A stretch of DNA of 64,000 nt, taken from the NCBI GenBank assembly GCA_900095095.1, contig FMBT01000392.1:91313-155312 (forward strand), given 5' to 3'. The stretch is from Fragilariopsis cylindrus CCMP1102. Its lineage: Eukaryota > Bacillariophyta > Bacillariophyceae > Bacillariales > Bacillariaceae. This document shows, piece by piece, positions 4,554 to 43,924 of the stretch (position 1 is the first letter of the stretch; the number at the start of each line of letters is the position of its first letter). The notes under the pieces were generated by a model, which did no database searches, was not told where the DNA came from, and was given only the letters and a program-made list of their open reading frames with translations. A program made the translations under genes and the position numbers.

Positions 4554-7500
4554 TCATGCCGTTGTATTACTTACTCCTTGGGATTCCTGTTTTTGGACCT
4601 CGGCTTGGTCAGTAAAAGTTTTACGTGTTTCATCATTACATTCCCTCCACATCTGCGCTAAAACCTTTGTCGTTTCGGGTAGGTTCATTTTTTCGCCGTT
4701 TTCGTCCAATACCTGACTTCGATGCGAGGCACAGAAAAGCATATATGCAGAAGGAGGGCGCTTTTTCTCGATGTTTCCCTCTGCTTTTGGTGAAGACTTC
4801 TTTTTTGGTTTTGGTAAAGGCTTTTTTCTATTTAGATTTGACGTTATCGTCGAAGAAGATCCCTTCGCCTCACCCTTCTCCCTCGTATATCGTAATTTGT
4901 CTTCTGCTGACATAGTTTCGTATTCGCTCTTGGTGGCAGCATCAAGATTTTTCCAGCGTCTGCCGAGCTCCTTCGATATTTCCCCCAAGCTATTATGATC
5001 CTTTGACACTTCAGCTCGATTTGAGCCGCAAAAGTATATGTACGCTGAACGTGGTCGTTTTGGAAGTGTTGTCGACGAGCCCTTCACAACTGTCTTGCCT
5101 CTCTTCGACTGACGCATATCCTTGGTCTCTTCCTCCCATTTTCCTTTTTCCATGTCATATGCTGATTTCAGAGTCGCTGCCATTTCGATATAGGGCTGTT
5201 TGTCGTCGTCAGTGATTTCACTCCACAAGCGAGATAATTCTTTGGAAACTTCACCGAGAGAAGAAAATTTGGTTGCTGCTTCTGGACGTTTTTCAGCACA
5301 AAATATAAGATAAGAAGACTTGGGTCTCTTGGGTGCTGGTGGAAGGTCAGAGTCAGGCGTTTTCTTATTTCTACTGCTCTTTCCAGGTTTCGTTGCCGCT
5401 TTTTCTTGGATGAGTGACCATGCTTCCTCGAGTGGAAGCTCTGATGGGTCCACTAAATAATCACTGGGCAATTTAGCGTTAATTTTTTTCCAATTGATGT
5501 ATTCGCCGAACCTTCCTTGCTTAACACTTATCATGCTTCCATCCATTTCTCCAATTTCCGCGAGAACACCAGCGGAAAATTTTGATCCCTGATTTACTAT
5601 CGTATCAGTCACTAATTCTTTTGCTTTGTCTGCGTCGATTGTTAATATATCACCATCCTTTGGCTTCAACGATATAAACGTAGCGTTGTACTTCAGGTAC
5701 GGTCCATACGGTCCAAGGTTTGCCTCGATAGGCAAGTCATCCATCAGACAAACTGTCCTAGGAAGGCCGACATACTGAATAGCTTCTTCTAGAGTGGGTC
5801 CGATCATATCAGCTAAGGGTTCATCTTTTTGGTTTTGATCCAAAGATTCCATTTCAGATTTCTTGAAGCTTCTAAGCTCACGGGGAAGAGTATGTGTACT
5901 GGTTCCGTCCTCACCATCGTCTCCCCACTGAAGATATCCGCCATATGGTCCTACTTTCAGGCGAATGCTTCTACCATCTTCCGGATGCTGACCAAGGTTT
6001 AAACCACCCTGCTCTTTCGTCTTCAATAAAGCATTCAAAGTACTATGTGTAATGGTTGAGATGTCAGAGGCCATCCCGGGCGGTAGACTTGCTGTGATTG
6101 ATTTTTCCTTTTCGTTATCATTTTCCGTGGTAGAAGTCTTCTTTATATAAGGACCCCATGGGCCAATAAAAAGGCCAATTTCATCAACATTGTCTATAGA
6201 ATTCGAAGCAAGAGCAGGCAAATTTGCTCGTCGTGCGACATCTGCATCAACAAACTGGTCGATGTGATTAATTTTGGCAGCAAGTCCTTCTTCTCCTTGA
6301 TAAAACTCGTTGAGATATGACAGACGTTCACTTTTGCCGATTTCTTTCTCAGAGTTTGCAATCTTGTCGAGTCTTTCTTCCATTTTTGCTGTAAAAGTGG
6401 GGTCGACATACATCTCGCAATGCTGTTCCAATAACGACGTCACAACGAATGCTGTGAGCGATGGAACAAGGGGCCCTCGTGCATTATTAGACCCAGTGAA
6501 ATCTTCTCCTCCCGCAGCTCTCTGTGCGATTATTGCAGGTCCCGAGACTTCCTTTGGTCCTCCTCTACGATTGGAGTCGCTAGTGACGGGAGAACCAATG
6601 TATGCTCGATCTCTAAGAATTTGTACAGTGCCAGCATATGTGCTAGGACGACCAACTCCAAGCTTTTCTAACTCTTGAACAAATGAAGCCTCCGTATATC
6701 TAGCTGGTGGTTGTGTCATGTGGACCAGCCCTTCAACGTCATCACAATGAAGATTTTGACCTTCCTCAAAACAGGGCAAGATTGTTGATTTTGAGTCGAC
6801 CTGACGAGGATAAGCAATCGTATAACCCGGATCAACGACTACACTTCCACTCGTACGAAACAAAACTTCAGTGTTGTCTTCATCTTCATAGTCACTTTCA
6901 CCCGAAATAATAATAGATGTCTGACTAGAAATTTGAGGTGTCATGTGAGATGCAACCGTTCGTTGATAGATTAATTTATAAACTTCAGTTGCCGCTTTAT
7001 CAAAACTAGGTGGCAAGTCGTCCGGTTTTAGAAATCGTCCATCTTCCTGAACTGCTGGTCGAATAGCTTCGTGTGCTGCTTGTGGTTCAGGCTTTTGGTC
7101 CTGAGATGATTTTTTCTTTTTTTCTCCACGAATTTCCATCGAAGAAACATACTTTCCACGACCACCAAATTCCTTTGTAATTTCCGTTTCAATGGCATGT
7201 TGAGCGTCTTGTGACAGATGGGTGGAATCTGTTCGCATGTAACTGATGAAACCTTTCTCGTATAGTTGCTGAGCTATTCGCATACTTCCACTCACTGATA
7301 ATCCCAACCGTCGATTTGCTTCTTGTTGGAAACTAGACGTAATGAATGGTGGTGATGGCTTTTGTTTGCGCTGACTAGAAGTGACTTTTTGAATAGTCCA
7401 CACCCAATTTTGTGTGTGTGTGTGAATAAGATTAATAAGTTCTGCAGCTGATTTTTCTTTCAAGTGTATCTTATCTTGTGATGCAGATGTGAGGTCATCG

Positions 7501-9064
7501 GTCTGTTTGGGATTGAAATCTGCCGTACCCGATGCTAACGTTTGCCCATTAATAGAAATCAATTGTGTTTCTAGTAACCGATCGATATCTTCCTTGTTGT
7601 TGTTATTGTTGACTACTGTCGCACTAAAATTACCTTTGACGCTCCAATATTCAGTTTCTTGAAATGTCAAACGCTCTCGTTCTCGTCGGACGGTCATTGC
7701 CATACCCACTGACTGAACTCTTCCAGCCGACAACCCTGGAGCCTGGATCAAGTTAATGTAGATGAAAAATTCCAAATGAAATTAGTGACGAATTTACTCG
7801 GCATTTTATAGATTCATGTTCTTCGGTGTTTCAAATAAGAAATAAAAAAGGATAAAAATCAGTTTCACTTTTAACTTACAATTTTTTTCCACAAGATAGG
7901 AGAGACAGTAAAACCGGCCAACCGGTCCAGTACACGTCGAGTCTCCTGTGCCTGGACAAGATTATCACGGAGGGACGTCTCTGGATGTTCAATCGCATCG
8001 ACAATTGCTTTTCGAGTGATTTCGGTAAACCGGACTCGGAGTGGAGCTTCTTTCGTAGTATTTTTGGTGGTGGTGGTTCTGGTTATGGTGTTGATGTCAT
8101 TACCGTCTCCTTCTAATAGCTGCAGCAAATGCCATGCCATAGCCTCTCCCTCACGATCATCATCAGTGGCTAAGACTAGCTGTTGAGCCGATGCACTTAA
8201 TTCTTGAAGTTCTCGTGTCAAATTTTCTTTCCCTTCAATAATTGTATACGATGGTTGATAATCATTATCAAGATCGATTCCTGCAATAAGTTGATCCTTG
8301 GAGGTTTTACCTTTGGGGATATTTCGTATATGTCCCATGGAAGATGTAATCACAAAATCATAATTCAACTCATTTTCTTGGACGTATTGTTGTAAAATTT
8401 TGGATATAGTAAGACATTTCGAAGGCGATTCGACAATGACTAATTTGAACGGACGTTTTTGTTGTTGTGTTGACATGTCTTTTTTCTTTGGGAATGGGAA
8501 TACGAATCCTGGTGGTCCATGGACTACTAGTGAGTAATTTTTGCTGAAACTCTTCTTGGATCGTCTACTAACGCTAGTTGCAGTTGCAGTTGCTGCTGCT
8601 GCTGCCAAAGAAGTAGTAGATTGTGTATATGATTGTTGTTGCTGTTGTTGTATCGAATGAGGATGATTATTTATCGAGAACGATCGATGATGATGATGAT
8701 GATGATGCTGTTGTCGACTAATTCTTATAGAAGATGAGCGTGTATTTGCTATTGGTATTGATATGGCTGTTAGTTGATGCTTGCTACTGTGGGAAATCGA
8801 AATCATACTCGTATGACGGTGATGATTCCTCGTCTTCATCCTCGACGAAAGAAAAGCATTTGAAAATAATACATTTCGTCTCATCATCGATGACATAGAC
8901 ATTAATGTCACCGTGATCATAATCAGGAAGCATCGAAAAATAGATCGACGTATCTTTGTTGTTGTTGTCGTTATCGTTGTCCTTATCGTTGTCGTTGTCG
9001 TTGAAGGTGATTGTAGTCGTTTCTTGCAGTTTGGATTTGAAAAATTTCGTCTGGATTGCCACAT
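4554..9064 (-). CDS. type IA DNA topoisomerase with three C-terminal HMG boxes (two exons)
   Basis: Exon 1 is 9064-7880 and exon 2 is 7742-4554; the 137-bp intron (GTAAGT...CAG) closes the frame exactly, giving about 1457 residues. Residues ~1-190 are low complexity, with a hydrophobic stretch and an SNAFLSS motif that suggest organelle targeting. A TOPRIM domain follows (VIVESPSK; catalytic DDDREGEAMAW). The central domain has GLSAGRVQSV, and the nucleophile tyrosine lies in the FISYMRTDS motif (~residue 559). Several 'GPYGPYLK'-type glycine repeats come next. The tail carries three HMG boxes starting near residues 1203, 1286 and 1388 (KRPKSSYLIFC, KRPRSAYIYFC, KRPPSAYMLFC). Type IA enzymes relax negative supercoils by single-strand passage; the bacterial-type form usually serves organelles. 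HMG boxes bend or package DNA, as in mtDNA nucleoids, so an organellar nucleoid enzyme is a reasonable inference. Confidence 0.9.
7743..7879 (-). other. intron of the topoisomerase gene
   Basis: 137 bp with donor GTAAGT after the codon of ...LWKKI and acceptor ...TGATCCAG before APGLSAGRVQSV. Removal joins the conserved topoisomerase core exactly in phase 0. Confidence 0.85.
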
Positions 9065-33707: not shown

Positions 33708-34988
33708 ATGACATTAGGTCCACCATCAACAGGCACAGGTTCTCAGAAAGAAAAAGAAGAAAGAACAGAAACAGGAATAGGAACAGAGACGACGACGACG
33801 AACGTTCCGGATGATGAATGGACGAGCGTGCACAAAGTACCACGGCGTCGTCGTCCACAAAGAGGGCGTCGTCGCAACCACCAAATGAAAGAAAACACTA
33901 CTTCGTCGGTACAAATTCCAAGTAAATCTGTAAAAGCAGGGTATGGGTCCTCCTCAGTATATACACAGAATAATAATAATAATAATAGTGACTCGATCGC
34001 GAATGAAGAAATATACAATTCATTAAATATTTGTCTCCGAGAATTGAAAGAGAGCGAATATTGGCGTAATATCAAACAATTGCTGTTAAAAATGCGATTG
34101 GACGACGACGACGACCGCAGATACAGCAATAGCAACAGCAATTGTAAATTATTTCAATCTATTGTCTGTTACGGAATTGGAAATTTTGGTACGACGCGGT
34201 CGTCGGCTCCTTTGTGGCAATTAGCGTTGGCAGTTACGATTCGAGATTATATTAGAACTCTGCATACACATAACGACAACGACGACGACGATGAGACATC
34301 GTTAGAGGATGATGATCATGATTCGTCTTCTTCTTCTTTGAGTTCAACACTGAAATCTACATCAAATAAAAACAACGACGACGATCATCGTCGACGACGA
34401 CAACTACGACGACTTCCCACTATGTACTACTTTGAACCTCTCATGACGGTAGAAGAATCAATTGTACTTGAAAAATTAGACATAAATATTATCGCAGAAA
34501 ATGAACGCGGTGGACGTTCGGTGATCGATGAAGGAGGTTGCCTCTTTTTCATGCCACATTGTCCAATGATATTGTATACCAATTTACTACACGCCAACTG
34601 GGATTGCTTAAGAGAAAATAATATACTTATATTTGGAAACTCTTTAAGTAGTTATATTGACGGTGGCGGCAACAATAGTAATAACAATAATATTGATATA
34701 ACGAATAATAATAATCCACAAAAACGGCAGGCACTCGATATCTTAAATGACCTACAACCTCATTGGGAAGAAGAGAGATTGGATATAAGTAAGAATGATA
34801 TTTTCGACAGACCAGCATATTTCGAACGAGCTTTCAATGATTCTAGTTTCACATCCTTTCGAAGAACAGTTAATATTGCTGCTACTTCTGCTACCGAAAC
34901 CGAAACCAAAACCCAAAACTCTTGTTGGCCAAAGCGGCCACAATTACTCGATACTTCACAAAGTGATGACGGAGGCGAGGTACTGTAG
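33708..34988 (+). CDS. SRR1-domain protein
   Basis: 426 residues, one exon. Residues ~145-310 carry the SRR1 signature: FQSIVCYGIGNFG, PLWQLALAV, TMYYFEPLMTVEE, LEKLDINIIAENERG, CLFFMPHCPMILYTNLLHANW and NILIFGNSLSSY. SRR1 is known from Arabidopsis as a regulator of phytochrome-B signalling and the circadian clock, with homologues in yeast and animals; its biochemical activity is unclear. The N-terminal ~70 residues are basic and Arg/Thr-rich (RRRRPQRGRRR), which may be a nuclear signal. Asp/Ser and Asn inserts interrupt the domain, as in many genes of this window. It converges on the REV1-REV7 gene, whose 3' end is ~200 bp away. Confidence 0.85.
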   Translation: MTLGPPSTGTGSQKEKEERTETGIGTETTTTNVPDDEWTSVHKVPRRRRPQRGRRRNHQMKENTTSSVQIPSKSVKAGYGSSSVYTQNNNNNNSDSIANEEIYNSLNICLRELKESEYWRNIKQLLLKMRLDDDDDRRYSNSNSNCKLFQSIVCYGIGNFGTTRSSAPLWQLALAVTIRDYIRTLHTHNDNDDDDETSLEDDDHDSSSSSLSSTLKSTSNKNNDDDHRRRRQLRRLPTMYYFEPLMTVEESIVLEKLDINIIAENERGGRSVIDEGGCLFFMPHCPMILYTNLLHANWDCLRENNILIFGNSLSSYIDGGGNNSNNNNIDITNNNNPQKRQALDILNDLQPHWEEERLDISKNDIFDRPAYFERAFNDSSFTSFRRTVNIAATSATETETKTQNSCWPKRPQLLDTSQSDDGGEVL

Positions 34989-35189: not shown

Positions 35190-35835
35190 CTATATATGTT
35201 TTCTATGAGAGTTTTCTGTCAGATTTTGGTCTGGCCTGTGCAAGAGTCTATATTGAAATTGACAGCCAGAGCTTGGAACATGGTGCACAACACAGTTTTC
35301 AATCTGGTGATCAGCTATCGAATCTGATCTAAACCATCTTGTATTGTCCAGCGTACTATTCCCCGCTTCCGTTGACTCTGGAATAGTTGTAGGATGCACC
35401 AGAAGTATGATTCTGAACGACATTGAGTCAGTCCAATTATACGATTGTAGCCCCTCGAGTTTACCTGAACTACAAATCATATCCCGTAGCTCTCTTTTCA
35501 ATACCGAAGACACAACATCGAAAGCGTTTTTACCCGAAGAAAACGAGAGCGAAAACTGTTCAAATGTGATCATCTTGGTCTGGTCATAAATTTCAACCAA
35601 TAGCTCATCCGACCGTCTACCCCCGCAATCGTCGTCGTTGTTGTCAAAAATAGCCGGTACGATGACTTGCAATGCTTCTCTAATGTAAGCTGCAACACCA
35701 GGATGGCGATTAATTTTGCATTGAGCACCAATGTACCGCGTCGAGCAAAATGTATCACCTGGATAAACTCTTCGACGGTAAAGTATTTGATGGATGAAAA
35801 TCTCTAATGTGTCTTTCCAGAGAGTCCGTACCGCC
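35190..35835 (-). other. REV7/MAD2L2-type HORMA domain at the C terminus of REV1
   Basis: About 213 residues. The segment from TLWKDTLEIFIHQILY to AIFDN lines up residue for residue with the first half of REV7, including the ILY-x-R-x-VYP and HP...YI motifs. The later 'LVHP' strand also fits, and the final ~50 residues could form the HORMA safety belt. It lies in the same exon and frame as the polymerase core, with no stop or splice pair between them. Confidence 0.85.
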
Positions 35836-38800
35836 GATATCTCGTTGGCCGTAACTCCTTTCAAGTCTTTTCTATCTATTATTTGATTATTTTCTAAATT
35901 CGTGTTCGAATCCTCTTCCCCGAGGATTTGTTTATTGATACTGACGCTTTGTATTCCTTCATCCTTTCCTTCATTTGTATTCCTTGCATAGGTAGATTTT
36001 CTTCGTTTCGTTTTCAAATGCGAATTATATAGCTCCGATGTCGATTTTCTTGATCGTCGATGGTTGAAATTTTTTGTTCGCGACGTGCGTTGTGATAAAA
36101 CGCCTACCTGTCGGGTGTCTTGATTAACCACCTGAAGTTTGATTTCAAGCGGAAGTTTTTCCAGCTGCGTGAGGGATATGCCTGTTCTCTCTTGACCCGA
36201 TTTTACTGCCGCTAGCTTCATCATTCTTTTCAAGTCGGTTTGCAGAAACCGATTGACATAATTGGTCTCACTATTCACGACGTGGCTGATGTGTGCGTTG
36301 TTCATATTAATGCTTTCTTCTATGTCACCAGACTCCGCTTTCTTCATTCTGGAAACGATTTGTCGCTGGAGTTCGATAGGTAGCGCCTCAACCTGACTCA
36401 TATGTATTTGGCTCATTGGAGGTAATTCAATGAGTGGTGGATCATCATCTCTAAAAATTGCGTCACCCGTGACGTCTTGTTCAATGTCGATTTCATCTAT
36501 CTCGTTGTTCGATTCTTCTATAAATGACAGCGTATCATTTATTACGGGAGACTCGTACACGGCTTCATCGGTTTTTTCACTTTGCTTACTCGACCTGATG
36601 TTGTGATCAACATTTCCCATATCAATACTTTTCTGTAACCAATGTTGCATCCCAGTGACATTCATTTGATTCTCGGTGGCATTATCATTTTCAAGGCTAC
36701 TTATTATAATACCCATACCACGAATATCGTTAATATCTCCAATATCGAATTCTTGTAATAGACTCAGACCAACTTTCTTGAATATTTTAGCATCTCTTGT
36801 AGCTACATTCCCTGAAAGACCCCTGATTTTGGAAAGGCTGTTACAGGAGCCATGACCCAGAAATTTCGACGGCTCTGTAGACCCTTTCTTCCGCTGCTTG
36901 ATCTTTAGTGTTAGTCGTTTCCCTCTGACAGAAATTCCTTCCATGCGCTTTTCAACTTCCCTAGCAAGACCTTCCATGAAATGGTCAATTCCATACGGTC
37001 CATCAAATCTCACTCCGTAGTTGCATTCTGCTCCTATTGTCTTTCGTTCTACAGGTGTAATAGACCTATTATCCTTGCCTTGAGTGAAATCATAAATTTT
37101 CTTACCAGTGCCGGATCCTAAGATTCGAATCAATTCGCTTTCTCCTCTCGATCCCAAATCCCATATATCCTGAACAGTCACAAGTCCTTCTTTTTCTAAT
37201 TTGGTTTCTGTTCGCCGACCAATTCCATGCAAATCTCGCAGTTTCAATTCTTTTAACAGTTCTTCGTAGTCCCGGACGCAATAGGATTTATTTGGTTTAA
37301 CTTTATCCGTTCCCAACTTCGCCAAAAACTTGTTACATCCAATACCAATAGACGCAGTACATTGTGTTGCGTTAAAAATTTCAGTCCGAACCGATTCTGC
37401 TAATTGAAATGCGTAGTCGTAGAGATTCTCCAAAATATTAGGATCATCAAAATACAGTTCTACATAAGCTTCGTCGCAGGAAACAACTTCGACATTACCT
37501 CGATGGTTTTCTGAAGTGATCAAGCGATCTAGAATCTCTAAAACTTGCTGACTGACTTCTTCGTACCCCTTAAAGTCGTAGCTCAAGACAATAACTTCAG
37601 GACAGAGTTCCTTCGCTCGTCCTAGAAACATTCCTTTTTTGATTCCATAATTTCGGGCTACATAATTACACGTTGCACATTCTGAGGAAGAGTTCTTGGG
37701 AACATGAGTTGCCTTCTCATAGGAGAGATCAAGCATGGCATTGCCATGACCATCGTCGTTATTTTGCTCATCGTTGCCACGTTTTCCGTGATGTGAAATG
37801 ACAACAGGTTTATCACGGTATTGAGGATAGTTTCGAAGGGCAACTGCCGCAAAGAAACAATCCATATCGACGTGGAAGATGAGCCGCTTTGTATTAGAGG
37901 AATGCTTATGAGACATATTGTTGGGATGATGCGTGGATGATGTTCGTTGTTTGAAACTCCCAATGAAACTCAATCGAGAGGAAGCAAAATAAGAATCAAG
38001 AAAATTTGGATCAGTACCTACGTTTCTGACTTTGCCATCGATGTATCTATTGTCCTTCTTGTCTGTCGTGTCTAGCTGCTTGAGTGTCCCTTTCTCAATA
38101 ACATTACCATGACCAACTTTGATTGGAGATTGATGACGAGTTGGTTCCTTCGATGAATATGGACTAAGGTAATCATTTTGATGATGTTGCTGATTATTAC
38201 GTTCCATCCCTGACTTTTCTGGTGACGAAGTTTTTGAGTATCTTTGTGAGTCTTTTTGTTTTTGAAATATCGATTGTATCCCCATCTGTAGCTGATCCTT
38301 ATGTTCAACGAGAAGATAATTCCCATATGGCAACAGCTTCCCCTCACGAACACTATCGACAATCCATGTTGGACGACACACTGGTCTCGGTTGTTTTTGT
38401 CTCTTATAGGCCTCGGCCTTAGCCATCTTAATATAAAAATTGGTAGTTCAATTCGCGTTGAAAGGTAGGACAATTAGTTTCAAAAAAGTGACTAAAATGA
38501 AATTAAATAAATTGAAGATATCATACTACCGTAGTAGCGCAAAACCTTTTTCGTGCCAACTTACCGACAGTTGTTCTGCAATGATATGTGTAACACGCAC
38601 AGTTTCGTATGTCTCGTAGTCACCACCATGCTTTTGTAGAAGACGTTTAATTGTTTCTGTATCAGGATTTGTGTAGCCAGCAATTTTCACGACGACCCCA
38701 TAAAAGAATAAATCTGGTCGTGATTTTCGTAGACTTTTTGGTGTAGAAGAAGGAGAGGTGATTATTTTTGTTGTCATTTTTTCTTCTTCGTCGATCGGAG

Positions 38801-39569
38801 AGGCTATGGTAGATTTTATATGCGGTGCCTGTTGTTGTACGGAAAGATCTTTCATATATTGAACATCATGATTAGAAGAATCCTTATCATTATCATCTGC
38901 CATTGAAAACATTCTAGCCAGTTCTGTTATGCTATCTTCCTCCACTGATGGTGGGATACATGCATCATGTTTTTGGTTTTCTTCCTGACCATTAAGTTTT
39001 GTTTTCATTCTCTTTTTTCTCTCCAACCTTTTATTTCCTCGTCCATGACGTCTTTCTAATCGATGTATAATAGATTCCATCTTCGTTCTTTTCTTTTTCG
39101 GTTGTGAGTTTTCTATAGACTTAACACCCTCCACAAAACGTACAGTAGCAGCAGTACCATTCGTTCGACTTCTTTTGTTATTGATATCACTAGCCGGAAA
39201 CGAAGAAATTAGATTTGAAGTTTGTGCATATTTTGCAGTAATTTCTGTTGCTGTTGCTGTTTGTGCCACCGGTGTGGGCTTCATAGATCGTGATGATGTC
39301 GGAGACGACGAGATCGTTCGGTTTGCGTCCGACGAGTCCTTAACTTTTCCTGGTATTGGTGGTGGAGGAAGTACCAGTCCAAATTGTTCTCGTTGTCCCG
39401 CGATTTTTAAGGCCATGTAATTATGAAACGAATCTTCTCCAAAGGAACTACCACTGCCCGTCTTTCGACCAGCCTTTACAAGGTCGACATTCTCCGGTTG
39501 CATCGATTTTGAGGGTTTTACCATATTGCTATAATTATAAAATGTATCCAGGTAATTCCAGCACTTCAT
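35190..39569 (-). CDS. REV1: REV1 translesion DNA polymerase fused to a REV7/MAD2B HORMA domain
   Basis: Exon 1 is 39569-38565 and exon 2 is 38426-35190; the 138-bp intron (GTAAGT...TTAAG) lies inside the BRCT domain and closes the frame, giving 1413 residues. Order: SFHNYMALKI motif (~50); BRCT (~285-380, PDLFFYGVVVKIAGYTNP ... CRPTWIVDSVREGKLLPYGNYL); Y-family polymerase core (~510-910) with FHVDMDCFFA, VVSCDEAYVEL, SIGIGCNKFLAKLGTDK and LRDLHGIGRR; two ubiquitin-binding motifs (~1010 MSQVEALPIELQRQI, ~1085 ISLTQLEKLPLEIKLQV); then, from ~1200, a REV7 HORMA domain (LEIFIHQILYRRRVYPGDTF, NRHPGVAAYIREALQVIVPA, ELLVEIYDQ, FRIILLVHP). REV1 inserts dCMP opposite lesions and scaffolds other polymerases; REV7 normally bridges REV1 and Pol zeta as a separate protein. 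The helical REV1 C-terminal domain was not seen. Confidence 0.9.
38427..38564 (-). other. intron splitting the REV1 BRCT domain
   Basis: 138 bp, phase 0, GTAAGT donor after ...THIIAEQLS and TTAAG acceptor before MAKAEAYKRQ. Splicing gives a continuous BRCT fold. Confidence 0.8.
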
Positions 39570-42394: not shown

Positions 42395-43924
42395 TTACTC
42401 TGCATCGTCTATTAAGTCGGATTGGGAATCTCTTCCCTTAGAATGGCTCAAGGATGTGAAAAAATCTCCATTTTTCAACATGGGTACAAGACCTGGAGAT
42501 CCACTAAATAGACCTCCTATCGGTTTTCCTCCAATAAATACATGTGGTAACGAAGATTGGCCAGTCATTTTCAATAACGCCGCTCTTTTTATGGGACCAT
42601 TTTCTGAAATTAGACCTGGTATCCATTCTTTTCCTAGGGAAATTTCCTTATAGTCCACATCGAGTCTATCTAATAGATCTTTCGTTTCAGATGAAAATGG
42701 TGACAGTTCATACGTGTATACTACTACAGGATCAGTATCGACTTCAGTTTTGATGACACGGATTGCTTCTTCGACGTTTTGTTGAAAATTATTATCAGCA
42801 TTTTTTTCTCCTGCCTGTAGGGGGGCTATAGTTGAAAATATTGGTTTGAATAATGACATAACATTCGTTGACGTCCATTCTAGTATTTCATTTGGTGGAG
42901 TCCAAAGAGCATAATTCTTGTACAAGTACTCAACAATATCTTTACTATCTGGTATAGAAACTCCTGTATTAGGATCAATCAGATACGGACATTGTGTTGA
43001 TCCACCAGTTATTGAAGCCAATTCATCACGACGGGGAGATTTTTTTCCGGCGCTGCGTAGTTCGTAATTAATATCCAATTCCGTTAAAACCTCACGAACA
43101 ATTCTACAAAATTGATTCCCTTCATACGAATATAATATTAATGTTTTTTCGGGACGATTTACTGTATTGGGAGATGATGTAACAGATGATGATACCTGAC
43201 TTCCTTTACCTAATCGTATCCATTCAGTGAGATACATTCCAGCAAGTTGAAGGTACTCTTTGAAAGTGTCAAGTTGGTCGTTGCTGTTGTTGTTAGCATC
43301 GAGGATTTGTTGTTGTTCTTGATCAACAAAAGATTCATCCAAAAACTTCAGGATATCTTCAGTCCCTTCAATCGTCAGATACTCTTCTTCTTCTGATACT
43401 GCTGCTACCAAAACAGGAATCAAAAATCTTTTACAATTAATTGGTAAAACTGAAGCAATCGAATTGGTGGCTGATGGGATGACTTGTTCTACTACAAGAT
43501 CCAATTCGGTAATTTTTTCTCGTACTGGACGACATTCCTTCGAATTTTCTACGTCGTATAATTTGACGAGTCGAACGTTATTGTTGCTAATAATATTGCT
43601 GGAAACGGTCACTCCATTAGGAAGACGAAAAATTGATGCTAATCCAGAAGTGAAAACATCAAAAGAATTCGGAACACTCATATAAAGTCGGCGGCGACGT
43701 GTAGTAGTAGTAGTAGTAGTAGTACTACTTTGTCTGTTGTAGTGCAGTGCTCGTGATTTTGCATTTATAATTGCTTTGCTTGAAAAGTCAATCGTTGAAA
43801 AGGCCGTTGTCACTGTCATCATCTTCATCGGCACAGGGCAATAACTGCTACTTCCGAGAATAATGATAATGATATTTGTTATAAAAAAGAAATTCATAGT
43901 AGTGTGGTGGAAATGTTGCATCAT
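42395..43924 (-). CDS. plastid-targeted protein with three glutaredoxin/GST N-terminal-like domains
   Basis: 509 residues, one exon, converging on the preceding gene with a 57-bp gap. The start MMQHFHHTTMNFFFITNIIII is a signal peptide, and VTTAFST gives the AF plastid junction. Three thioredoxin-fold repeats follow: ~115-215 (VRLVKLYDVENSKECRPVRE), ~272-350 (KTLILYSYEGNQFCRIVRE, CPYLIDPNTG, DIVEYL) and ~392-490 (DPVVVYTYELSPFSSETKD, LPHVFIGGKPIGG). The middle repeat keeps one cysteine, the first has a displaced one, and the third reads SPFSS where glutaredoxins have CPFC. The cis-proline motifs (CPYL, LPHV) are kept. Related plastid 'tandem GST-N' proteins exist in plants. The role is probably glutathione binding or redox-related rather than classic dithiol catalysis. 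Confidence 0.8.
   Translation of the reverse strand: MMQHFHHTTMNFFFITNIIIIILGSSSYCPVPMKMMTVTTAFSTIDFSSKAIINAKSRALHYNRQSSTTTTTTTTRRRRLYMSVPNSFDVFTSGLASIFRLPNGVTVSSNIISNNNVRLVKLYDVENSKECRPVREKITELDLVVEQVIPSATNSIASVLPINCKRFLIPVLVAAVSEEEEYLTIEGTEDILKFLDESFVDQEQQQILDANNNSNDQLDTFKEYLQLAGMYLTEWIRLGKGSQVSSSVTSSPNTVNRPEKTLILYSYEGNQFCRIVREVLTELDINYELRSAGKKSPRRDELASITGGSTQCPYLIDPNTGVSIPDSKDIVEYLYKNYALWTPPNEILEWTSTNVMSLFKPIFSTIAPLQAGEKNADNNFQQNVEEAIRVIKTEVDTDPVVVYTYELSPFSSETKDLLDRLDVDYKEISLGKEWIPGLISENGPIKRAALLKMTGQSSLPHVFIGGKPIGGLFSGSPGLVPMLKNGDFFTSLSHSKGRDSQSDLIDDAE

Follow-up and report, generated by a model that had tools for sequence, protein, structure and literature searches.

A probable fusion of REV1 and REV7 in a single gene of the diatom Fragilariopsis cylindrus

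Introduction

In other eukaryotes, the helical C-terminal domain (CTD) of REV1 binds REV7 as well as the RIR motifs of other polymerases, and this domain is regarded as the central switchboard of translesion synthesis. The same hub role is the tenor of an excerpt of PMC8468184. The locus described here lies in a window of 64,000 nucleotides (the whole stretch of DNA that was analysed) from Fragilariopsis cylindrus CCMP1102, and it raises the question of whether REV1 and REV7 can be encoded as one polypeptide rather than as two proteins that meet through the CTD. Such a fusion, with the CTD missing, had been proposed in a first-pass annotation of the DNA.

Gene structure and domain content

The reverse strand of the window contains an open reading frame (ORF) of 1078 amino acids with no internal stops (38426..35190), which runs from the REV1 polymerase core through a C-terminal REV7 of 217 residues; the core and the tail are indeed located in a single coding exon. 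A further ORF upstream (38526-39569, also on the reverse strand, as are all features below) encodes the first part of a BRCT domain (Pfam, 4.1e-6). In the relative P0004, which lies on a contig of 4203 nt, both window ORFs align to a single ORF of 1375 amino acids with no intron. Because P0004 aligns as one ORF, a 138-nt phase-0 GT..AG intron (38427..38564; GTAAGT...TTAAG), which is absent in P0004 and splits the BRCT domain, is predicted in the window gene, giving a protein of 1398 amino acids with a predicted start at 39524. Exon 1 (38565..39524) would thus comprise 320 codons from the Met common to P0004, in an ORF that opens at 39569, based on the P0004 alignment and the Pfam BRCT match. 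Exon 2 (35190..38426), with 1078 codons and the stop, encodes the end of the BRCT domain, the Y-family core, the UBM-like motifs, a linker and REV7.

The N-terminal BRCT domain of REV1 is confirmed by both Pfam and the P0004 alignment. Its exon 1 part is found at 38568..38714 (PF00533, 4.1e-6) and the remainder, which reaches about 38316, falls in exon 2, where residues 9-37 give a weak match to PF16589 (0.051). The polymerase core corresponds to residues 186-584 of the exon 2 protein (36675..37871) and contains DMDCFF and SCDEAYV, with SSRLSFIG just N-terminal to it; Pfam assigns IMS (3.8e-40), IMS_C and IMS_HHH to the 1078-aa ORF. Among Y-family polymerases this core is closest to REV1, which accounts for the top seven of the eight PDB sequences at E ≤ 1e-30 (from 1.8e-68 for the best, REV1 chain 3gqc, to 1.1e-38), the remaining one being Pol IV.

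Two ubiquitin-binding motifs had also been claimed, and two motif-like stretches are recognizable from sequence and alignment, i.e., motif 1 (ELPPMSQIHMSQVEALPIELQRQIVSRMKK; 36339..36428) and motif 2 (TGISLTQLEKLPLEIKLQVVNQ...; 36102..36185). However, the Pfam UBM model gives weak matches in three relatives only (0.0087, 0.013 and 0.079), with no entry at E ≤ 1 for the window protein, so that this part of the claim stands at the level of motif likeness. The motifs are followed by a linker (35844..36101), Met-free in the window protein, which aligns loosely with the pre-CTD linker of Pseudo-nitzschia-type REV1s, and then by the REV7 (HORMA) domain (35193..35843; residues 862-1078), which is full length including the safety-belt end according to PDB and profile searches. 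BRCT, the Y-family core, the SRL stretch before the core and the UBM-like motifs occur in the same order in REV1 of other diatoms and of yeast and human, whereas the C-terminus of the window protein is REV7 rather than the REV1 CTD.

Identity of the C-terminal domain

The Pfam HORMA match in the 1078-aa ORF is sub-threshold (residues 870-965, E 0.017, 15 bits with a cut-off of 24). A search of the PDB with the tail (residues 862-1078) at E ≤ 1 returned 18 sequences, 16 of which are REV7 (best 8.9e-5) and two MAD2 (0.58 and 0.83). A profile built from four fused tails reached 1.1e-7, with the best MAD2 at 0.23, and a 28-row profile, consisting of the window tail and 27 stand-alone REV7s, reached 1.6e-15, aligned over chain residues 8-194, with the best MAD2 at 2.2e-5. 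Against a profile of stand-alone REV7s only, the window tail scores 259 bits vs. 24.5 bits for the MAD2 of this genome, and the highest-scoring shuffled tail reaches 2.0 bits (200 shuffles, 95 reported). MAD2 belongs to the same HORMA family, but it scores far lower than the window tail, and the PDB and profile scores together with the shuffles rule out the tail as a MAD2 or as a chance ORF. The assignment of the tail to the REV7/MAD2B family, as first proposed, is therefore upheld.

When the tail is aligned with REV7 chain 5o8k, the residues corresponding to Y63, F146, R124 and W171, the last of which we take to have a role in REV3 binding, are invariant in the 28 rows, and the one corresponding to Y37 is at least 90% conserved. 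An excerpt of PMC8468184 places Y37, Y63 and F146 in the REV3 pocket of REV7, and excerpts of PMC7181697 describe R124 as part of the REV7 dimer face and report that REV7 mutants at Y63/W171 were assayed. The tail thus resembles REV7/MAD2B (MAD2L2), the Pol zeta subunit, in its full-length HORMA match and in its REV3-pocket and dimer residues; however, the window REV7 is not a separate protein and lacks an immediately preceding start codon.

Absence of the REV1 CTD

A diatom CTD profile, which is positive in 80 of the best 120 of 501 REV1 relatives, finds no match in P0001 to P0005. Pfam REV1_C likewise gives no match, a negative that says little because this model is insensitive and misses six of the seven diatom REV1s scanned. 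Two more queries were therefore run against the genome, the CTD of a close relative and the complete REV1 of that relative, the latter matching outside the CTD. The Pseudo-nitzschia-type CTD query gave no match across this genome at E ≤ 10, which taken alone shows little; the whole of P0013, the REV1 relative from which this query was taken and whose CTD lies at 957-1047, aligns to this genome no further than residue 923. With the profile, the CTD query and the whole-P0013 search all lacking a CTD match, the proposed lack of this domain is borne out. The CTDs of the relatives show weak sequence likeness to solved REV1 CTDs (best 0.037), and 10 of the 14 matches are REV1 CTDs.

Distribution and origin of the fusion

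The architecture of the window protein is repeated in P0002 to P0005, the tails of which are 100, 89, 75 and 58% identical to the window tail, respectively. P0002 may be from this same species, and one of the three clearly different fused sequences is named as from a Bacillariaceae MAG. P0004 looks like a cDNA, though it may be genomic. Among the best 120 of the 501 REV1 relatives at E ≤ 1e-20, 80 have a CTD, four have a REV7 tail, none has both and 36 have neither (34 of these 36 are under 950 amino acids); the protein searches detect only relatives that have short exact words in common, and fusions elsewhere are possible.

Stand-alone REV7 proteins and CTD-ending REV1s of the Pseudo-nitzschia type also exist among the relatives, and the possession of a separate REV7 and a CTD-bearing REV1 by these relatives shows, as far as sequence comparison goes, that REV7 took the place of the CTD in the fused lineage as a derived state. 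In the REV7 tree, the fused tails cluster as a single clade with 100/99 and have 16 stand-alone rows as their sister group, the position expected of the lineage's own REV7. A split with 99/98 divides the fused REV1 bodies from 10 Pseudo-nitzschia-type rows, and the fused bodies form a clade of their own at 92/91. In a 58-row tree the fused group receives only 82/29. Since the fused REV1s fall together with those of Pseudo-nitzschia, which have the CTD, the CTD appears to have been replaced by the partner that it binds; in terms of domain content and trees, the replacement by REV7 itself is shown. With one open frame and a junction that is repeated in a second genomic copy and in relatives, the proposed fusion holds, and we regard a true REV1-REV7 gene fusion, present in several members of one diatom lineage grouping with Pseudo-nitzschia and yielding one protein that does both jobs, as the probable explanation.

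Alternative explanations

It is unlikely that the gene is fused while its parts are released, with internal initiation, an alternative transcript or proteolysis supplying a separate REV7 and leaving the cell with free REV7. A Met at 842 in P0003 (REV7 start at 862) and at 1158/1162 in P0004 (REV7 start at 1161) would suit such a release, as would the runs of at least three basic residues in the linkers of P0001, P0003 and P0005. However, the stretch before REV7 is Met-free over 125 residues in the window protein and 112 in P0005, none of the four fused proteins checked has a 2A-like motif, and P0004 consists of a single long ORF that fills nearly all of its contig. One mRNA presumably spans REV1 and REV7, and the fused protein is presumably functional.

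Even less likely is that the HORMA tail is a captured REV7 copy which binds something else, with the working REV7 residing in a genomic region that is missing from the assembly. The completeness of the assembly is not stated, and REV3, although present in the genome (303 bits against Pol zeta vs. 164 against Pol delta), has no clear REV7-binding motif: a strict search yielded only LIDPDTLAP at residue 480, and with 0.36 such matches expected from shuffling this is not significant. Pfam HORMA is a poor detector here, finding only a separate MAD2-like gene (contig C537) in the whole genome and missing the window's own REV7 tail; the absence of another REV7 was therefore judged with two stand-alone REV7 queries, both of which, at E ≤ 10, match nothing but the fusion loci. 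This result, together with the conserved REV3-pocket residues and the position of the fused tails as expected of the lineage's own REV7, argues against a captured copy and for the tail being the working REV7 of a fused protein.

A misassembly or chimera of two adjacent genes is close to refuted: REV1 and REV7 are separate in relatives, a pattern which the first-pass annotation had linked to misassembly, but two contigs of this genome carry the same junction, as do three more sequences that are clearly distinct, and the linkers of all four fused proteins align. The second genomic copy, on the other contig, is 97% identical and differs in the tail by six synonymous changes in 145 sites and three non-synonymous changes in 506; upstream of the tail, single-base gaps break its reading frame.

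Proposed mechanism and comparison with other fusions

In the mechanism proposed for the fused protein, the BRCT and UBM-like parts would bring it to the damaged fork, where the REV1 core would insert dCMP and the C-terminal HORMA domain would close its safety belt on REV3. The inserter (REV1) and the extender (REV3) would then be joined covalently, in place of the REV1-CTD/REV7 contact. A fixed 1:1 ratio and an altered recruitment of Pol zeta would follow logically from such a fusion. We lean slightly towards the reading that REV1 is here obligately and covalently tethered within Pol zeta, with every REV7 carrying REV1 and the CTD hub for inserter choice given up.

If this is true, translesion synthesis would proceed via a fixed REV1-REV3 inserter/extender unit, and REV1 would be dragged into every other REV7 task, e.g., end joining. 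The replacement would separate two functions of the CTD, with the tie to Pol zeta retained in its strongest form and the tie to other inserter polymerases given up, and it would thus be a natural experiment on which of these functions is essential. Structural studies would gain a REV1-Pol zeta assembly that is already joined, and any other need for free REV7 could be tested in this lineage.

Searches of open-licence PubMed Central listed no report of a REV1-REV7 fusion. In chytrid fungi, an excerpt of PMC11061109 describes a fused Fanconi-pathway protein, apparently FANCM and XPF, with one supporting transcript, which likewise places two DNA repair proteins of the same pathway in one polypeptide but involves other proteins. 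By their molecule names, PDB entries 6nif (hREV7-RAN-hREV3) and 6c59 (Pol kappa RIR-REV1 CTD) also hold pathway partners in one chain; however, both are laboratory-made, and neither joins REV1 to REV7.

The fusion would come at a cost, namely that Pol eta, Pol kappa and POLD3-type partners no longer have a CTD-RIR hub. The other Y-family genes of this genome, checked for loss of RIR motifs, retain the FF stretches IEKFF, IQSFF and IDTFF, which are equally readable as PCNA-binding motifs.

Gene structure and the REV1 part

The REV1–REV7 gene lies on the minus strand, and its second exon is an ORF of 1078 codons (38426..35190), preceded on the same strand by an upstream ORF (39569..38526) in which Pfam detects the first part of the BRCT domain. 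In P0004, a database protein with the same fusion, BRCT, core and REV7 tail all fall within a single 1375-aa ORF. Alignment of P0004 with the window predicts a phase-0 intron of 138 nt (38564-38427, minus strand) with GTAAGT..TTAAG ends, giving a spliced window protein of 1398 aa that starts at 39524. The P0004 contig (4203 nt) is barely longer than its frame (4128 nt) and lacks the intron, suggesting that it may be a cDNA contig.

The exon 2 protein contains a Y-family core according to Pfam (IMS, 3.8e-40; IMS_C, 1.1e-10; IMS_HHH) and, at residues 870-965, a sub-threshold HORMA match (0.017). When the core was compared with the PDB, REV1 accounted for 7 of the 8 sequences listed at E <= 1e-30 (best chain 3gqc, 1.8e-68); judged by sequence, this polymerase core is that of REV1. 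The stretches DMDCFF, SCDEAYV and SSRLSFIG are all found in the window protein, the last holding what we take to be the arginine used for dCMP insertion.

Identity of the tail

Of the 18 PDB matches (E <= 1) obtained with the tail alone (residues 862-1078 of the exon 2 protein, window 35193-35843), 16 are REV7 (best 8.9e-5) and two MAD2 (0.58 and 0.83). A profile of four fused tails gave 1.1e-7 for the best REV7 and 0.23 for MAD2, and a 28-row profile 1.6e-15 and 2.2e-5, respectively; in the 28-row search the top match, 5o8k, aligned across residues 8-194, and the next two matches shown cover the N-terminal half only. Specificity was assessed using a profile built from 27 stand-alone REV7 proteins, without any fused tail, which scored the window tail at 259 bits vs. 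24.5 for the MAD2 of the same genome. The same profile reported three of seven CTD-bearing REV1s (CTD, the REV1 C-terminal domain), all at -1.4 or below, and the window protein without its tail gave no reported match; the highest score among 200 shuffled tails was 2.0.

The pocket of REV7 that receives the REV3 motif is described as Y37, Y63 and F146 (PMC8468184); Y63A and W171A have been assayed, and R124 sits in the REV7 dimer interface (PMC7181697). The 28-row alignment shows invariant equivalents of Y63, F146, W171 and R124; at the Y37 position, conservation is 90% or more. The tail is thus a full-length REV7 that appears capable of holding REV3.

Second copy and relatives

A second genomic copy on contig C564 has the same arrangement at 97% identity over 4.7 kb, its exon 2 (L003, G000:C564:30806-38460) being 97-99% identical to the window gene. 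In this copy, a 344-aa frame is intact, starting shortly upstream of the second UBM-like motif and taking in REV7. Five single-base gap columns, every one of them upstream of the tail, break the frame in exon 2; they represent either assembly errors or a decaying allele. Between the two copies, the tail shows 6 synonymous differences over 144.8 sites and 3 non-synonymous differences over 506.2 sites, which is what constraint would give, although the counts are small. Four long proteins among 443 candidates share the tail (E <= 0.01). P0002, which has 24 member sequences and may come from the same species, has an identical tail (100%); in P0003, a protein named as a Bacillariaceae MAG REV1, the tail is 89% identical. 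The tails of P0004 and P0005 reach 75% and 58%, respectively, and P0005 (689 aa) has only the later part of the polymerase. The polymerase part and the tail share one frame in all four. On sequence grounds, the fusion is not an artefact.

Replacement of the CTD

The best 120 of 501 REV1 relatives were examined with a CTD profile built from 11 of these REV1s and widened once: 80 carry the CTD (weakest match 1.2e-10), four the REV7 tail, none both and 36 neither. Of the last group, 34 are under 950 aa, and the other two are the models P0011 (Pseudo-nitzschia multistriata) and P0044 (Phaeodactylum). Three observations support identification of the profile-defined domain as the REV1 CTD: Pfam REV1_C reaches its cut-off in P0090, it is listed in precomputed Pfam annotation for five further REV1 rows, and the best PDB matches of the profile are REV1 CTDs (10 of 14 matches), though weak (0.037). 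Against this identification, Pfam REV1_C was found in just one of seven scanned REV1s, and the three that adjoin the fused group gave no match to it. The profile finds the CTD in Pseudo-nitzschia australis REV1 (P0006), half of it in the Psemu1 model (P0010), and the domain again in six unnamed rows next to these two. A CTD from this Pseudo-nitzschia group, searched against the window's genome at E <= 10, matches nothing, and the REV1 that supplied it (CTD at 957-1047) matches this genome only up to residue 923. In the fused REV1s, the CTD has been replaced by REV7.

A core tree of 58 rows unites the fused and Pseudo-nitzschia rows in one clade (100/99) that lies within the CTD-bearing REV1s; support for the fused group as such is only 82/29. 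In a second REV1 tree, of 15 rows over a longer shared region, the split between the fused group and the ten Pseudo-nitzschia-type rows, three of them named and seven unnamed, has 99/98, and the fused group is a clade at 92/91. The fused tails form one clade in the REV7 tree (100/99), sister to 16 stand-alone rows, which have no species names and whose tree position suggests pairing with Pseudo-nitzschia. The simplest account is one fusion and one CTD loss on a single branch.

Pathway partners and proposed mechanism

Queries with two kinds of stand-alone REV7 hit nothing in the genome at E <= 10 beyond the two fusion loci, and Pfam HORMA finds only a MAD2-like gene on contig C537. REV3 is encoded by a 1845-aa ORF on contig C324, the 1116-aa C-terminal part of which scores 303 bits to Pol zeta vs. 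164 to Pol delta. The REV7-binding consensus, two-aliphatic-x-P-x4-P (PMC8468184), has a single match in REV3, LIDPDTLAP at residue 480, where shuffling expects 0.36; it is a lead only.

REV7 bridges REV3 and the REV1 CTD in other eukaryotes (PMC8468184). Here, a single reading frame with REV1 and REV7 identity and conserved pocket residues occurs in a genome where no other REV7 was found, and we propose that the fusion is one protein in the cell, whose tail would hold REV3 and tether REV1 and Pol zeta together. The bridge would be built into REV1, and therefore the REV1-CTD/REV7 contact would no longer be needed; the CTD site for RIR-bearing polymerases would also be gone. Two further Y-family loci, L030 (955-3369, plus strand; IEKFF) and L031 (743-3115, minus strand; IQSFF and IDTFF), keep FF-containing motifs although no RIR-binding REV1 CTD was found; these may be PCNA-binding motifs. 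In known assemblies of Pol zeta, REV7 is present twice; if this is true here too, there would be two REV1s per REV3, unless only one motif is used. Separate translation of REV7 is unlikely, since methionine is absent from the last 125 residues before REV7 in the window protein and the last 112 in P0005, yet in P0003 and P0004 a methionine lies near the start of REV7.

No report of a REV1–REV7 fusion was found in the open-licence literature; the closest case found there is a fused Fanconi-pathway protein of chytrids, apparently FANCM with XPF, as presented in PMC11061109. Both families are known, and what is new is the joined form, in which a docking domain is replaced by its own ligand. Fused sequences are already public, P0003 being named REV1 in a database, where no remark on the tail was noticed.

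Other genes in the window

An SRR1-domain gene (1.2e-28; 33708-34988, plus strand) ends about 200 bases from the REV1–REV7 3′ end, tail to tail, and the C564 copy is also flanked by a near-identical ORF of this gene. At 4554-9064 (minus strand), a bacterial-type topoisomerase spans two adjoining ORFs (Toprim and Topoisom_bac) and ends in topoisomerase C-terminal repeats and three HMG-box stretches, an unusual combination. A 509-aa ORF at 42395-43924 (minus strand) contains two GST N-terminal and two glutaredoxin stretches.
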